A stretch of 64,000 nt of DNA from Palaeococcus ferrophilus DSM 13482. GTDB lineage: Archaea > Methanobacteriota_B > Thermococci > Thermococcales > Thermococcaceae. The position numbers and the translations under genes are program-made. Position 1 is the first letter of the stretch. Each line of letters begins with the position of its first letter. Of this stretch, positions 50,101 through 58,046 are shown piece by piece. Location: positions 1 through 64,000 of the forward strand of contig NZ_LANF01000009.1 of the NCBI RefSeq assembly GCF_000966265.1, given 5' to 3'. The notes below the pieces were generated by a model. That model saw only the letters and a program-made list of their open reading frames with translations. It made no database searches and had not been told where the DNA came from.

Positions 50101-50895
50101 ATGGTGGGCGTTGTTGTAACCGGTAGGGGCGGGGTTGGAAAGACTACACTTACCGCCAACCTCGGGGCTTACTTCGCGAGGGAAAGGTACAAAACCCTCC
50201 TGATAGACGGCGACGTTTACCTCCCCAAGCTGGCGTTCCATTTCGGCCTTGACAGGCCCAGGTACCATCTTCACGCCCTTCTGAAGGATGACTCGTTGAG
50301 GCCGGAGATGGCAATATACGAGATTCCCGAGAACAGGCTCTTTGTACTCCCTGGGAGTTCGCGCTTCTACGACATCCTCATGACACCAGCAGAGAGACTC
50401 AAGGACGTTGTGAGTAACGCGATGCGCCACTTTGCCCTCACGATAATAGACTCCCCCACGGGGATTCCCTTCGACACGCTGCCCCTCTTCTCCCTGGTCC
50501 AGTATCAGATAGTGGTCGTTGAGGTTGAGCGTTCACCGATACACTCCTTCGAGACCCTCGTGAAAAACGAGATTCTTAAGCTCAAGGCCCTCGGGGACCT
50601 CTACGGCCTGCGCGTGGGGGTGGTCCTCAACAAGGTCAGGGAATCGGAGGAGGAGATTGAAGGAGTACTGCGCTTCCTCGACGAGAACGTCCGCGTTGAG
50701 GTTCTCGGAGTGGTCCCCATGGACGAGAAGGTCCCGGAGGCCATAAACTACGGAAAGCCCGTACTCGAGCACGACCCATCGTCGCCGGCAGCCAAGGCGT
50801 TCCGAAAAGTTGGGGAGAACCTCGAGAGGTGGGTGTTCGGCAGAAACCCGGGGACGGAGTTCATAAACCGCGTCATCAAGGAGGGATGGAGTTGA
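50101..50895 (+). CDS. MinD/ParA-like ATPase 1 (Arg in place of signature Lys)
   Basis: A 264-residue deviant-Walker ATPase. The P loop reads GRGGVGKTTLTANLG, where the usual KGGVGKTT lysine is Arg. LLIDGDVYLPKLAFHFGL is the Walker A' (switch I) region, and IIDSPTGIPFDTLPLF the Walker B/switch II region. No C-terminal membrane-targeting amphipathic helix like that of MinD is obvious. Pairs with the next gene, with which it shares similarity along its length. The product may position or assemble a membrane complex such as the chemoreceptor downstream. Confidence 0.85.
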   Translation: MVGVVVTGRGGVGKTTLTANLGAYFARERYKTLLIDGDVYLPKLAFHFGLDRPRYHLHALLKDDSLRPEMAIYEIPENRLFVLPGSSRFYDILMTPAERLKDVVSNAMRHFALTIIDSPTGIPFDTLPLFSLVQYQIVVVEVERSPIHSFETLVKNEILKLKALGDLYGLRVGVVLNKVRESEEEIEGVLRFLDENVRVEVLGVVPMDEKVPEAINYGKPVLEHDPSSPAAKAFRKVGENLERWVFGRNPGTEFINRVIKEGWS

Positions 50896-51626
50896 TAGTC
50901 CTCTTCGTTGGCCCCGGGGGTTCGGGGAAGACCGTGATGGCAATAAATCTCGGCATCTTAATGGGCAGGATGGGCTACAACACCCTCCTCGTGGACGGGG
51001 ACATATACCTCCCGGACATGACGGAGTACCTCGATATGGGGGCAGTGAGGGTGACGCTGCACACGCTTCTCAAGGACCCCCTCGTGGAGCCCGAGGCAGC
51101 CCTCTACAAGCTCAGGGAGTACGGGGTAAGCGTGCTGCCCGGCTCAAAGGAGCTGGGGCAGGTGGTGGGGGCACACACGTCCCTTCTAATCCACGTTTTC
51201 GAGGAGCTCTCAAAGGAGTACGCCCTCACGTTCGTGGACACGCCGAGCGGCCTTCCCATGGACCTTCTCGAACTCTACGAAATAGCCACTCATCAGGTTG
51301 TCGTCCTCGACGTCGAGAGGGCCGGAAGAGGAGAGCTCCCCTACACAATCCACGACCAGCTGGAGAAGTACCTCTTCCTCGACAGGGAGGAGCGCATGGA
51401 GCACGGGGTCATTCTGAACAACGTGCAGAAGGTTGACCCAGCACTCATTGAGGACTACATCGAGGAGACCTTCGAGGTTCCCGTCCTGGGAGTGGTTCCC
51501 TACGACCCCCACGTTCCTGAGTCGGTGTCCCTTAGGAGGCCCCTCATCGTGGAATTCCCGCACAGCGACGCGGCCATAGCGATAAAGGACGCGGGAAAGG
51601 TCATCGAGCGCTGGCTCTTCGGATAG
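50886..51626 (+). CDS. MinD/ParA-like ATPase 2 (Pro in place of signature Lys)
   Basis: A 246-residue paralogue of the preceding gene, overlapping it by 10 bp: LLVDGDIYLPDMTEYLDM matches LLIDGDVYLPKL, and VLGVVPYDPHVPESVSLRRP matches VLGVVPMDEKVPEAINYGKP. Its P loop, GPGGSGKTVMAINLG, has Pro at the signature-lysine position and Ser-Gly-Lys-Thr-Val afterward, so ATP-driven dimerisation may differ. Both ends look intact. Probably a heterodimer partner of ATPase 1. Confidence 0.83.
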   Translation: MELIVLFVGPGGSGKTVMAINLGILMGRMGYNTLLVDGDIYLPDMTEYLDMGAVRVTLHTLLKDPLVEPEAALYKLREYGVSVLPGSKELGQVVGAHTSLLIHVFEELSKEYALTFVDTPSGLPMDLLELYEIATHQVVVLDVERAGRGELPYTIHDQLEKYLFLDREERMEHGVILNNVQKVDPALIEDYIEETFEVPVLGVVPYDPHVPESVSLRRPLIVEFPHSDAAIAIKDAGKVIERWLFG

Positions 51627-51690
51627 CCCGCCCCTCCTCAAGTTCTCTCTTGAGTGTTCTGGCCTCTTCCTCAGCCTTCTTCACCGGAAC
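51601..51690 (-). pseudogene. Remnant of the helicase 3' end
   Basis: Read leftward, this stretch encodes VPVKKAEEEARTLKRELEEG then RAIRRASAR and stop, running into the MinD-like gene on the other strand. EEEARTLKRELEEGR is identical to the C terminus of the helicase at 53659-56166, and the preceding KKA resembles RRT there. Upstream it is closed by a stop codon. It is best explained as a broken copy of the helicase tail. Confidence 0.7.
51632..51672. repeat. 41-bp exact direct repeat, left copy
   Basis: Identical base for base to 53684-53724, offset 2052 bp, in the same orientation. It starts 5 bp after the second MinD-like gene. Confidence 0.95.
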
Positions 51691-51720
51691 ATTCTCTCCA
51701 TCTCACATCCTTTGAAAGGA

Positions 51721-51824
51721 GGAACCCCTACTAACGGGTTCCCCGTAGGAAGTGCCCTCCATTCTAGCCGAGTACTTACGGCGGGGTTTAACAAAGAGTC
51801 TCTTTACCTACATTTTTACCTACA
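51721..51824. promoter_or_regulatory. Repeat-rich control region of the chemoreceptor gene
   Basis: Contains hairpin GGAACCC/GGGTTCC (51721-51727, 51736-51742), a second possible stem CCGTA/TACGG (51743-51747, 51777-51781), the perfect palindrome AAAGAGTCTCTTT (51793-51805) and two direct copies of TTTACCTACA (51803-51812, 51815-51824). TATA-like TTGTATTAAAC follows at about 51830-51840. Role inferred from position. Confidence 0.45.
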
Positions 51825-51873
51825 CAAAATTGTATTAAACTTTGAAAATGTTATTTTCCACGGGGGGATATAG

Positions 51874-53640
51874 ATGGACATGCGAAAGACCGTCAGAGTA
51901 GGGATAATCATAGTGCTAATCCTCAACCTCGTCTCAGTCACGGGAGTGTTCATCTACGCCAGTAAGGCAAAGGCGGACGGAGTAGTGATAGACCTCGCAG
52001 GCCGGCAGAGGATGCTCACTCAGAAGATGTCGAAGGAGGCCCTTGCGATAGCAGTAGGCGAAGACAACTACCGGGAAGAGCTCCTGGCAACGGCTGAACT
52101 CTTTGATAAAAGCTTGAAAGCCCTGCTCTACGGTGGGACCGCCCCGATACACAACAAGGAACAATCCATTCCCCCTGCGCCTCCTGAGGTTCAGGCCCAA
52201 CTCAAAAAAGTGGAGGCACTATGGCAACCTTTCTACAGAAACGTTCAGATAGTAGCCACGAAAGACACGAGTGACCCACAGTTCAAGGATGCCCTTGAGT
52301 ATATTCTGACTCACAACGTTGAGCTCCTGACCGAGATGAACAAAGCGGTAGGACTCTACAGCGGCACATACGGGAGGAAGCTCACGTACCTTAAGATTTA
52401 CCTTGTCGGAATGCTGGCCCTCAGCATCTCCGTTGGAGTTTATCTCCTTAGATATCTCGAAAGAATAATCAACGATTTTATGTCCCTGCACGAAACAAGC
52501 ATAAAACATGGAGAAACTCTGGAGGATGAATTGAAACACCTTGTCGATTACATCACTGCCCTCTCAAGCGGCGATCTCACGGTGACACCCGGAGAGGGGA
52601 GTGCGGAGTTCGAGAGGGTCCACAGGGCCCTCAGTGAGTTTAGGGAGAAATTGATTAAAACAGTGAGCACTTTAAACGAGATAACATTAGGGTTGAAGGC
52701 AAACTCGGAACGACTTCTTGAGATGTCGAAGGATGGCGTTAGATTGGTCGAGCAGGGCACTGAAGCCGTCCGACAGATAGCAATTGAGGCGCAGAGGCAG
52801 CAGGAGAACATCAACGAGATAACCGAGGGAATGCGCTACGTGAGTGAGATAAGCGACCAGAGCATTCGTTCTATGGAGGAATTTGAGGGATCTATGAGAG
52901 AGGTCGTGATCATGGCCAATGATGGAAGGGAGAAAAGCCGCATCTCCGCAGAGAAGATAAAAAGGATTCAAAGTACCATAGGAGACGTAAAAGATGCCGT
53001 TGACTCAATAAGGGACATGGGTAAAAACATTGAGAACATCACCAACGTGATAACGGGTATAGCAGAGCAGACAAACCTTCTTGCTTTAAACGCCGCTATT
53101 GAGGCTGCCAGGGCGGGTGAAGCCGGAAAAGGCTTCGCAGTCGTTGCTGAGGAGATACAGGGGCTCGCTGAAGAAAGCAAAAAGGCAGCGGAAAACATAA
53201 GGGCAATAATAACGCAGATGTCGGACAGGATAGAGAACACGGTAGACCTGACGGAGCACAGCGTCAACATCGTTGAAGAGAGCTCATCAAGCCTGGAGGA
53301 GACGGTTCAGTACCTCAAAAACATCGCTGAGATGATTGAGGAAGTGACCCCCCAGATGGAAGAGGTTAAAGATAGCATTATGCGCACGAAAGAGGCGGCT
53401 GAGAAGGCACTGAAGGCAATGGAGAACCTAGCGGCATCTGCGGAGGAAACCACAGCCTCAACTGAGGAGGTAACTTCCACTATGGAGGAACAGGGCCGCA
53501 TCGTCCGCTCCCTTGAGGACATGGCTGCCACAATAAACGGTGCGGTTGGCAGGATAGTCCCAATAGTGGAGTCGTTCAAGTTGCCCGAGAAAGGACTCGT
53601 CAAACGGGTTGTTGAGGAGGTCAGGAGCCGCATTTCTTAG
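51874..53640 (+). CDS. Methyl-accepting chemotaxis protein with PilJ-type sensor
   Basis: A 588-residue chemoreceptor: TM1 (about 7-30), a PilJ/nitrate-sensor-like extracytoplasmic domain starting [22 protein letters not shown]2 (about 168-192), a HAMP-like linker and a long helical signalling part whose tip [20 protein letters not shown] and [20 protein letters not shown] (about 390-430) binds CheA/CheW. Its codons are A/T-richer than those of the neighbours. It lies between 41-bp direct repeats. No che genes lie in the window. Confidence 0.93.
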
Positions 53641-53658
53641 CGCTCTCGTGCCCCACAT

Positions 53659-56166
53659 TCAGTTTTTAACTTGAACCCCCCTACCCTCCTCAAGTTCTCT
53701 CTTGAGTGTTCTGGCCTCTTCCTCGGTTCTTCTCACGCGGAAGACCCTCGCTATCCTCTCCACCGCGTCGAGTTTCCTTATCGTCCCGTCCAGCCACGTG
53801 AAAACGTCGCCGGGATAGGCTATTAAACCGTAGGTTCGCCTGAAGTGCTCGGCTATCTGGGAGGGATGCCTTCCAGCCCTCCTGAGCTCCATGATCTCGT
53901 AGCTAACCTTCTCCATGGCGTACTCCGTGCAGTCCTCCTCTGGGCAGTTGAAGAAGTCCTGGTATATCGTGAAGAGCTTCTCCGCCACGTTGGGGCTTAC
54001 CTCCGGGATGATCCTGTCCAGCTCTTTAAGCATCGCCGTGAAGCTCGGTGAGAACAGCTTGCCCCCCACGCGCCCCCTAATCGCTGAACCAAGCTCCTTC
54101 TGCATCGTGCCGCTGAGGTAGAGGTTTTCAAAGGGGAAGAGCTTAACCGCTATCCATCTCGCTTCCTTCTTGCCGAGGTTTTCACGGATGAACGTAGCCT
54201 CCTTTGGGAGGAGGAAGCTCATGCTAACGGCCCTCCCGTAGGGGGTCACCTCAACGCCGCGGCCCACGCGCAGGAAACCAAACTCCTGAAGCTTCTCGAG
54301 AACTTTTTCCGCGCTCTGGTTGGCGCCAAGGCACCTGGATTGGACTTCCTCGATGACGTCGAGCCGGTTGAAGACACAGGAATGTGCCAAAACGTTGTCC
54401 TGTTCAAGTTCGTCGCTCCACTCAACAACAACGGGTTCTATAGGCGCCGTCAGGAGCTTGAAAGCCACTTCGTCCTCGCTGCCCTCCATCCCGGCCGAGT
54501 ACTTCTTTCCGGGCTCGACTATGAGGTAAACCCTTCCCTTTTCGTGGTAGAGCGGTCTTCCGGCCCTTCCAAGCATCTGGTGGAACTCCCTCACGGTTAG
54601 CCACTTGTTGCCCATAGCAAGGCTCTCGAAGAGAACCTGGGATGCCGGGAAGTCCACTCCCGCCCCAAGCGCCGCCGTTGTGACCACCACATCGAGGCGG
54701 CCCTTGAGGAACTCGAGCTCCACGAGCTTGCGCTGGTGGTATGGAAGGCCTGAGTGATAGGGCTTGGCTTTCAGCCCCCTGCTCGTGAGGTAAGCCGCTA
54801 GCTCGTGCGTCCTCTTTCGGGAGAAGGTGAAAACTATGCTCTGGCCCCTGTAGCCCTGCCGGGAAGTCCTCGATGCTTCGGCCCTCGCCAGCCGCGCTAT
54901 GTACGCCCACTTCTCACTCTCGTTTCTCGCGATTATTATGTGTCTCTCCAGATCCACCGGCCTCTCGTCGTAGAGCACCAGCTTGAGCCCGAGTTCCTTC
55001 GCCAGCTCCTCCGCGTTGCCAATCGTGGCGCTCAAACCCAGGAACTGCGCTTTCGGATAGAGGGTTCTAAGACGCGCGATGAGACCGTCCAGCCTCGGCC
55101 CGCGCTCCTCGTCATCGAGGGTGTGTATCTCATCAATGACTACCGTCCCAACGTTTCCTATCTTCCTGCCGGCCCTCAGCAGGTAGTCTATTCCCTCGTA
55201 GGTTCCGACGATTATGTCCGCGTCTATGCCCGTATCAACGACAACCAGCTCATCCTTGGTTTTTATCCTGCTCATTCCGACCCTTATCGCCACGCGGAGG
55301 CCGAGTTTCGAATAGCGCCTCTTGAAGTCCTCGTACTTCTGGTTGGCCAGAGCCACAAGGGGAACCAAAAAGAGCATCTTTTGCCCCTTCATCGCCCTCG
55401 GAACGCCGGCGAGCTCTCCAATGAGGGTCTTACCGCTCGCGGTTGCGGAAACCACAAGGAGGCTCTCGCCATCGAGGAGGCCGTTCCTGATGGCCAGACT
55501 CTGGACCGGGAGGAGCTCGTTCACTCCCTCCGACTTCAGAACCTCCCTGAACTTCTCCGGAACCGGGAGTTCATCCACCCTGACCCTCTCAACCTTCACG
55601 TGCTTTGCCTTCAGCTCGTCCCAGCGGGTGATTTCGGGATGCGTCGTGGGATCAAACCGCGGGTCAAAGGCGTAGAGCACCTTGTCGAGGTCTTTAAAGC
55701 GTTTTAGAAGTTTTTTCGCCTGGTCCAGCATTGCCAGGCTCCTGAAGCGGAAGCGGAGTTCCCTCTTTAGCTCCTCCTCGGCGCAGCGCTCACATATGTA
55801 CTCGTCGTGGTATTTTATCCTGTTCCCCTCGCCGAGGACTGTAATCCTGCCCTCCATCATACAGAAGCGGCAGAGCGTTGCCCTCTCAACCTTCTTCTGG
55901 AGCCTCCTGGTGAAGTACTCCTCGAAATCCCCATCCACAAGTATTATCCTCGATGATCGCAGGGCCTTCTCGACCTCCTTGGGGTTCCTGTACTCGCTCC
56001 CCTCGAGAACCTTGAAGAGCCTGCCCTCTCGCATTATGAAGCGGTAAATACGGTCAGCCTTGAGGTTTTTCATCTGGGAGAGCTTCTCGGGCTCGTTCTC
56101 TATGAAAAAAGCCTCAAGCTCGTTCCTTTTCCTCCCCCGTCTCACTATGAAAAGCACACGTCTCAC
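53659..56166 (-). CDS. Ski2-like DEAD/DEAH-box helicase with N-terminal zinc module
   Basis: An 835-residue superfamily 2 helicase. The N-terminal unique domain carries CRFCMMEG and CERC, a Cys4 site near residues 98-130. The helicase core has motif I SATASGKT, motif II DEIH, motif III SATIG and motif VI QMLGRAGRP. The C-terminal part is helical, with two Cys in FNCPEEDC. It resembles the archaeal ASH-Ski2 RNA helicases linked to RNA decay; Hel308-type DNA action is the alternative. The last codons lie in the right copy of the 41-bp repeat. Confidence 0.88.
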   Translation of the reverse strand: MRRVLFIVRRGRKRNELEAFFIENEPEKLSQMKNLKADRIYRFIMREGRLFKVLEGSEYRNPKEVEKALRSSRIILVDGDFEEYFTRRLQKKVERATLCRFCMMEGRITVLGEGNRIKYHDEYICERCAEEELKRELRFRFRSLAMLDQAKKLLKRFKDLDKVLYAFDPRFDPTTHPEITRWDELKAKHVKVERVRVDELPVPEKFREVLKSEGVNELLPVQSLAIRNGLLDGESLLVVSATASGKTLIGELAGVPRAMKGQKMLFLVPLVALANQKYEDFKRRYSKLGLRVAIRVGMSRIKTKDELVVVDTGIDADIIVGTYEGIDYLLRAGRKIGNVGTVVIDEIHTLDDEERGPRLDGLIARLRTLYPKAQFLGLSATIGNAEELAKELGLKLVLYDERPVDLERHIIIARNESEKWAYIARLARAEASRTSRQGYRGQSIVFTFSRKRTHELAAYLTSRGLKAKPYHSGLPYHQRKLVELEFLKGRLDVVVTTAALGAGVDFPASQVLFESLAMGNKWLTVREFHQMLGRAGRPLYHEKGRVYLIVEPGKKYSAGMEGSEDEVAFKLLTAPIEPVVVEWSDELEQDNVLAHSCVFNRLDVIEEVQSRCLGANQSAEKVLEKLQEFGFLRVGRGVEVTPYGRAVSMSFLLPKEATFIRENLGKKEARWIAVKLFPFENLYLSGTMQKELGSAIRGRVGGKLFSPSFTAMLKELDRIIPEVSPNVAEKLFTIYQDFFNCPEEDCTEYAMEKVSYEIMELRRAGRHPSQIAEHFRRTYGLIAYPGDVFTWLDGTIRKLDAVERIARVFRVRRTEEEARTLKRELEEGRGVQVKN
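53684..53724. repeat. 41-bp exact direct repeat, right copy
   Basis: Lies inside the 3' end of the helicase gene and is identical to 51632-51672. The two copies bracket the chemoreceptor gene. Confidence 0.95.
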
Positions 56167-56176
56167 CCCAGAAGGA

Positions 56177-56374
56177 TCATTCGATGTCCTTGAATTTGTT
56201 CCTTATCCTTTTGGAGCCTATTCTGAGCTCCCTGAAGAAATCTATATGCTCCCGGGGAAGAAAGCCGTCTAGTTGAGTATCCCTCATGCGGCGCTTTTTT
56301 CCGTTCTCCCTTCTCTGCTCCTTTTTGGCCCCGGAGTTTCTGAGGTACTCGTCCAGCGTCCTGTCCATGGCCAT
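56177..56374 (-). CDS. Small basic protein upstream of helicase, unknown
   Basis: A 65-residue, strongly basic protein (MAMDRTLDEYLRNSGAKKEQ, RRENGKKRRMRD, then FFRELRIGSKRIRNKFKDIE). No ribosome site precedes ATG 56374, but CTATATAC lies at about 56398-56406, placing a start at the ATG itself, so the mRNA would be leaderless. The helicase ATG is 10 bp downstream; the two should be one transcript, and nucleic-acid binding is a fair guess from charge. Confidence 0.65.
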   Translation of the reverse strand: MAMDRTLDEYLRNSGAKKEQRRENGKKRRMRDTQLDGFLPREHIDFFRELRIGSKRIRNKFKDIE

Positions 56375-56468: not shown

Positions 56469-58046
56469 ATGCACTGGGCCGATTACATTGCTGAGAAGAT
56501 AATTAGGAAAAGGGGAGACAGGGAAGAGTACGTGGTGGAAAGCGGGATAACTCCGAGCGGTTACGTTCACATAGGCAACTTCAGGGAGCTTTTCACGGCC
56601 TACATCGTCGGCCACGCGCTCCGTGACAGGGGTAAGAAGGTTCGCCACATCCACATGTGGGACGACTACGACAGGTTTAGGAAGGTTCCCAAGAACGTCC
56701 CGCAGGAATGGAGGGAGCACCTCACCAGGCCGGTTCGCGAGGTTCCGGACCCGTGGGGCTGCCACGAGAGCTACGCCGAGCATTTCATGAGCCTCTTCGA
56801 GGAAGAGGTTTCGAGGCTCGGCATCGAGGTGGACTTCCTCCACGCCTACGAGCTGTACAAGAACGGCGAGTACGCCGAAGAAGTGAGGACCGCCCTCGAA
56901 AAGAGGGATGAGGTGAAGGCCATCCTTGACAAGTACCGCGAGAGGGCAAGGCAGCCGCTCCTTGAGGATTCATGGCAGCCAGTCATGGTGTATTGCCCAT
57001 CCTGCAGGAAGGAGGCGGACTTCGTTTCCTGGGACGGCGAGTGGAAGGTGTCCTACAGGTGCCCCCACTGCGGCGCCGAGGGCGAGACGGACATGAGGGA
57101 GGGCAACGTCAAGCTCCGCTGGCGCGTTGACTGGCCTATGAGGTGGGCCCACTTCAGGGTTGACTTTGAGCCGGCAGGAAAGGACCACCTCGCTGCCGGA
57201 GGCTCCTACGACACCGGGAGGGAGATAGTGGAGAAGGTCTTCGGCTGGCCCGCTCCAATAGATCTCATGTACGAGTTCGTTGGCATAAAGGGCCAGAAGG
57301 GCAAGATGAGCGGGAGCAAGGGCAATGTTATCCTTCTGAGTGACCTCTACGAGGTTCTGGAACCGGGAATAATCCGCTTCATCTACGCCAAGGCGAGGCC
57401 GAACAAGGAGCTCAAAATAGACCTCGGGCTCGGCCTGCTCAACCTCTACGACGAGTTCGACAAGGTTGAGCGCATCTATTTCGGCCTTGAGGAGGCCAAG
57501 AACCCGGATGAAGAGGAGGAGCTGAAGAGGACGTACGAGCTTTCAATGCCGAAGGTTCCGGAGAGACCCACCGCGCAGGCGCCCTTTAGGTTCCTGGTTA
57601 CGCTCGTCCAGATGCCCCACCTCGACGAGGAGGGGATAATAAACGTCCTCAGGGAGCAGGGCCACGTTCCGGAGGAACTGAACGAGGAGGACGTCGAGAG
57701 GATAAGGCTCCGCATACGCCTGGCCAAAAACTGGGTCGAGAAGTACGCTCCTGAGAACGTGAAGTTCTCCCTCCTCGAAAAGCCGCCCGAGATGGAGCTC
57801 GAGCCCGCGGTAAGGGAGGCGATGCTCGAGGTGGCAGAATGGCTGGAGAACCACGGTAAGTTCACCGTTGACGGGCTCAACAACGTCATCTTTGATGCCG
57901 CCAAGAAGCGCGGAATCCCGAGCAAGAAGTGGTTCAAGGCCCTCTACAACGTCTTCATCGGCAAGGACCGCGGCCCGAGGCTCGCACCGTTCCTTGCCTC
58001 ATTGGACCGGGAGTTCGTTATAAGGCGCCTCCGCATGGAGGCGTGA
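56469..58046 (+). CDS. lysS: Lysyl-tRNA synthetase, class I
   Basis: A 525-residue class I LysRS: HIGH-type [10 protein letters not shown] near residue 31, zinc site [10 protein letters not shown]...CPHCG (about 178-200), KMSKS-type GKMSGSKGN near 280 and a C-terminal helical anticodon domain. GGAGGGG precedes ATG 56469. The class I enzyme is typical of Euryarchaeota. Confidence 0.97.

Follow-up and report, generated by a model that had tools for sequence, protein, structure and literature searches.

How did a chemoreceptor gene come to lie between two exact copies of a short sequence, one of them the 3′ end of a helicase gene, in the genome of the archaeon Palaeococcus ferrophilus DSM 13482? 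The window analyzed here, a stretch of 64,000 nucleotides of contig NZ_LANF01000009.1, contains at positions 51632-51672 and 53684-53724 two 41-bp sequences that are in direct orientation and identical at 41 of 41 positions. An earlier note on this sequence had reported the repeats, and they are confirmed as the only pair of exact 41-bp repeats in the window; the 41-mer occurs at exactly two sites in the 2.2-Mb genome, and a genome-wide search allowing up to 3 mismatches found no third site. The left copy codes for VPVKKAEEEARTLKRELEEGRAIRRASAR, ending in a stop codon, whereas translation of the right copy bears out its description as the helicase C terminus. The locus comprises the following features.

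50877-51626, plus strand: MinD-like ATPase 2 (MinD2), the left neighbor, of Palaeococcus type and located directly beside the helicase in P. pacificus (gene comparison).
51632-51672, minus strand: left copy of the 41-bp repeat (sequence identity and genome-wide search).
51804-51873, plus strand: conserved region upstream of the chemoreceptor, found in 6 of 6 helicase-linked copies (CCTACA...ACCTACACAAAA; alignment of the copies).
51874-53640, plus strand: chemoreceptor with a PilJ-type sensor and an MCP signaling domain, of foreign composition (domains, composition and DNA comparison).
53659-56166, minus strand: the present helicase (DEAD/Helicase_C/DUF5814), Thermococcus-like (domains, identity and tree).
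53684-53724, minus strand: right copy of the 41-bp repeat, within the helicase 3′ end (sequence identity and genome-wide search).
56177-56374, minus strand: 65-aa ORF, the right neighbor, located upstream of the helicase in this genus (homologue search).

That chance or an assembly artefact produced this arrangement is extremely improbable: the assembly is a draft of 23 contigs, but the 41-bp pair is exact and unique in the genome, coding homology extends past the repeat, and a homologous layout is present in the Thermococcus genome G046 (see below).

The sole gene between the two repeat copies is the chemoreceptor. In P. pacificus, the gene order is DUF63-MinD1-MinD2-helicase-65-aa ORF, without the chemoreceptor, and about a dozen bases separate MinD2 from the helicase alignment, as expected from the proposal that the helicase would adjoin the MinD-like gene if the insert were missing. 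P. pacificus, the only complete close relative on which the empty site for the window rests, thus provides the junction that the note had suggested looking for in Thermococcus, the actual genus being Palaeococcus. The DNA alignment of the window with P. pacificus covers 51210-51676 and extends through the left copy, and that with Thermococcus G046 runs end-to-end at 81% across 51800-56156, that is, the chemoreceptor and the helicase, stopping no more than 10 bp short of the helicase start. The 65-aa ORF has no Pfam match; its homologues lie upstream of the helicase in both other genomes of the genus, and none were found in the Thermococcus loci searched. Given these alignment limits and the genus-only ORF, the locus appears as a Thermococcus-like block of chemoreceptor and helicase (about 51.8-56.16 kb) set between Palaeococcus-type neighbors.

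The helicase body shares 81-85% of its amino acids with Thermococcus as against 79% with P. pacificus. In the helicase tree, in which the base composition of P. pacificus is unlike that of G002, monophyly of Palaeococcus is rejected (p-AU 0.0137), the branch uniting the window helicase with Thermococcus having support of only 93/70. The SMC protein encoded in the window, in contrast, is of Palaeococcus type (81% vs 67-71%). Taken together, the Thermococcus-like body, the rejected monophyly and the Palaeococcus-type SMC suggest that the present helicase is probably a replacement of the native gene. The earlier proposal of a roughly 2-kb insertion with a target duplication is not supported by this comparison, since the whole present helicase is Thermococcus-like and the left copy is most readily understood as the end of the native gene. 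A joint recent transfer of chemoreceptor and helicase from a G046-like donor is rejected as well: the window helicase scores 0.785 to G046 and 0.76-0.80 to other Thermococcus, with no special closeness anywhere along its length. Given this lack of particular affinity of the helicase to G046, the two genes may have arrived at different times; alternatively, a related source may have supplied G046 with its chemoreceptor at a later date. As a separate observation, the helicase of G015 (G015:C1:108512-110562) is split into two overlapping frames, with the match starting at residue 149, and may be broken.

The nature of the left copy becomes clearer when the sequence around it is considered, in which three features are distinguished.

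51601-51672, minus strand: left remnant, in which the native helicase keeps its final 23 codons (EEEARTLKRELEEGRAIRRASAR, then a stop codon), overlapping the end of MinD2 (translation; the P. pacificus counterpart is EEEAKILKRELEEGRTIRR, then a stop codon).
51673-51700, minus strand: decayed stretch into which the left remnant continues (VPVKKA), interrupted by small deletions (sequence comparison).
51751-51779, minus strand: probable additional helicase piece, matching helicase positions 54478-54506 in the same orientation and common to G046 (composite match, 25/29).

The note's view of the left copy as a decayed helicase tail stands, but its restriction to 41 bp does not: the remnant spans about 51601-51700, and positions 51751-51779 probably hold a further, internal piece of the helicase. 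For this piece, the composite match is 25/29, the best of 130 null sequences scoring 22; single tests are weaker. Both in the window and in G046, a helicase-like piece lies ~100 bp upstream of the chemoreceptor and corresponds, in the correct orientation, to the helicase sequence ~820 bp inside the 3′ end. Because a piece from this depth is found in both, the left copy probably began as a longer fragment of the helicase gene and has since shrunk, and this fragment probably travelled together with the chemoreceptor.

The left copy is located beside MinD2, the expected place of the native helicase end. It reads as a native C terminus, and its inner residues (VKKA) are unlike those of Thermococcus (AKRA in P. 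pacificus), although two tails of group g3, which we take to be Thermococcus proper, carry the K as well, whereas the right copy reads VRRT (VRKT in Thermococcus) and its side ends in GVQVKN (RIQFKN in G046); the helicase tail has indeed been exchanged, as claimed from the sequence at first reading. The shared 41 bp codes for REL, with I at that place in 46 of 46 g3 tails and in all three g2 tails compared; the helicase tails of groups g1, g4, g5 and g6 have L at the REL/REI position, as in the 41 bp. For excess similarity to P. pacificus, the 41-bp stretch ranks 4 among 2477 overlapping helicase windows, which amounts to about 1 in 60 independent windows. The outer end of the left copy (GRAIRR vs GRTIRR) was also considered as a P. 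pacificus signature and found to be weak, GRTIRR being common in Thermococcus tails. An old duplicate under uniform decay fails to explain the 41/41 identity because its chance would be 0.0013 at 85% identity and 8e-6 at 75%. That the 41 bp looks native in type in both copies suggests conversion or crossover within the repeat. On the simplest reading of these sequences, the left copy would be the remainder of the native helicase gene, and a short conversion or crossover would have given the imported gene the identical 41 bp.

The chemoreceptor is A/T-richer than its surroundings, as noted before, with a GC3 of 60.8% compared to 74-81% in the neighbor genes; its relative in G046 has 60.3%. This relative is the closest in DNA identity (85.8%; 72% for G085). 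A full-length chemoreceptor is encoded in 7 of the 94 genomes and is helicase-adjacent in 6, so that its linkage to the helicase as a fixed ancestral trait of the family is unsupported. Composition and affinity support gain of the chemoreceptor by horizontal transfer. In G003, a relative of the chemoreceptor (L195:4991-6706) lies off the helicase locus, between nadA-like and nadB-like genes of NAD synthesis.

The adjacency of chemoreceptor and helicase predates the Palaeococcus genome, being found in five genomes besides the window. In Thermococcus G046, the chemoreceptor (86% identical) occupies the equivalent helicase 3′ end next to a different left neighbor, namely a gene for a CGP-CTERM protein behind an ABC transporter, and a decayed helicase tail lies between this gene and the chemoreceptor. 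In G044 and G021, the ABC transporter and CGP-CTERM gene directly abut the helicase without the chemoreceptor, and these loci represent empty sites for G046. When ~60 other genomes were tested at the locus against their own helicase tails, no significant tail copy was found and the window alone was positive; the decayed copy in G046 was detected solely by comparison with the tails of other genomes. The same flanks with both repeat copies in all relatives, named in advance as evidence against insertion, are not what is seen.

The remaining four genomes (G085, G054, G013 and G051), all of Thermococcus, have the order DUF63-chemoreceptor-helicase, with no tail copy on the left. This order, together with the Palaeococcus type of the DUF63 and MinD genes in the window, is compatible with the reverse scenario, in which an ancestor with DUF63-chemoreceptor-helicase would have gained, upstream of its chemoreceptor, a DUF63-MinD1-MinD2-helicase tail segment donated by Palaeococcus. 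The final anatomy would be identical, but the host genome is itself Palaeococcus, the right-neighbor ORF and SMC are likewise of Palaeococcus type, the chemoreceptor has a foreign composition and P. pacificus, which combines MinD genes with a native-type helicase and lacks the chemoreceptor, in part already contradicts this scenario; we consider such an origin of the left side quite unlikely. The 3′ side of the helicase is in general variable across Thermococcales (L194 2082-10527; L150; L168), where, depending on the genome, genes for ABC transporters and CGP-CTERM proteins, transposase-like, integrase-like and other genes are found.

The explanation that we favor, and regard as reasonably probable, is helicase-anchored recombination of transferred DNA, whereby the resident helicase was replaced by the chemoreceptor together with a Thermococcus-like helicase and its tail was left behind as a scar. 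DNA carrying a Thermococcus-type chemoreceptor beside its helicase gene would have entered a Palaeococcus cell, where the incoming helicase would have paired with the resident gene as a homologous anchor, followed by recombination at the resident locus. The resident arrangement, presumably MinD2-helicase-65-aa ORF as in P. pacificus, would thereby have received the chemoreceptor and the Thermococcus-like helicase in place of its own helicase. The left repeat, on the far side, would be what persists of the resident gene's final codons, and the right one would be where the imported helicase ends; the 41 bp would have been made or kept identical by gene conversion or crossover within the repeat. 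We infer the order of these events, their number (one transfer or two) and the conversion step from the anatomy of the locus. The repeat, the empty site, the foreign composition and affinity of the chemoreceptor, the conflict in the helicase tree, the genus-type flanks and the second case in G046 are seen directly, and the locus displays what homology-anchored replacement or insertion entails: an empty site with the same flanks, a foreign insert between native flanks and, past the insert, a leftover of the resident gene. With the helicase gene as anchor, the window and G046 can both be accounted for, and no mobile element is needed.

A different route, possible in our judgment but doubtful, is insertion of the chemoreceptor alone, as a circle or an end-joined piece with a helicase 3′ end, through a single crossover in the helicase tail or a tyrosine recombinase acting in trans. 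With a Thermococcus-like helicase body already present, such an event would give attL/attR-like repeats and an exchanged tail, which is the geometry observed, and similarity to G046 is higher for the chemoreceptor than for the helicase. Suicidal archaeal integrases use 40-50 bp att sites (PMC8371274), short homologies suffice for the pTN3 integrase (PMC5495485), and three SSV-type integrase matches are found elsewhere in the P. ferrophilus genome. However, the segment between the repeats encodes the chemoreceptor only and no integrase, as the earlier note had stated, so that of the hallmarks of a tyrosine-recombinase element the end repeats of ~40-60 bp, one within a target-gene 3′ end, are present and the integrase gene is missing. 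Furthermore, G046 has a single PF00589 match of XerA-like strength and no SSV-type integrase match, the target is a protein gene, the left copy is absent in the 4 other genomes, and no viral or close plasmid relative of the gene was found. A mobile-element carrier of the chemoreceptor was sought and rejected, viral contigs yielding no match and plasmids distant bacterial matches only. The combination of a transposase gene and terminal inverted repeats that marks a transposon or IS was not found at the segment. A further alternative, which appears unlikely, is that the chemoreceptor with its helicase-3′-end repeats constitutes a minimal integrase-free cassette that, by means of these repeats, loops out as a circle and re-enters the helicase gene of other Thermococcales by homologous recombination; if so, one sensory gene would be traded between species via a fixed housekeeping-gene dock.

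In xenologous gene displacement in situ, a foreign homologue replaces a resident gene and the flanks are kept. Helicase-anchored recombination resembles it in both respects and differs in the accompanying chemoreceptor gene and the scar of the old gene. Sequential gene displacement with 3′ remnants, as in T6SS effector modules of Vibrio cholerae (PMC5361080) and Rhs orphan tips, similarly has a homology anchor on one side and the displaced resident end beyond the incoming module; for such leftover gene ends in Vibrio, homology-facilitated illegitimate recombination has been named as the cause (PMC5361080). Here, in contrast, a housekeeping helicase serves as the anchor and an unrelated convergent gene as the passenger, and helicase homology, including the exact 41 bp in common, is found at both ends. 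The integrated elements pTN3, pT26-2 and TKV of Thermococcales (PMC5495485, PMC8371274) also have flanking direct repeats of 40-50 bp, one of which restores the target 3′ end; unlike these, the present locus has a one-gene insert without an integrase gene, a protein-gene target and homology that continues past the repeat. In transformation merodiploids of Streptococcus pneumoniae (PMC3784515), uptake of short DNA and alternative repeat pairing likewise yield a repeat-bordered duplication; those are large tandem duplications in a bacterium, whereas the duplication here is confined to the end of one gene. The scar, which recurs in another species, is likely of a known, ordinary kind, and its anatomy is unusually easy to read.

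No recognizable mobile element accompanies the sensory gene that the Palaeococcus genome apparently received from a Thermococcus-like source; empty sites are available in two lineages, and one conserved helicase gene appears to offer, in its 3′ end, a repeated landing place. Scars of this type give evidence, at the level of sequence, of exchange by recombination among archaea of hydrothermal vents, a process otherwise deduced mostly from trees. Outside the block, the Class I lysyl-tRNA synthetase gene (56469-58046) also looks Thermococcus-derived, its product being 86-90% identical to those of Thermococcus g3 compared to 79% for P. pacificus; in other genomes, this gene is not adjacent to the helicase.
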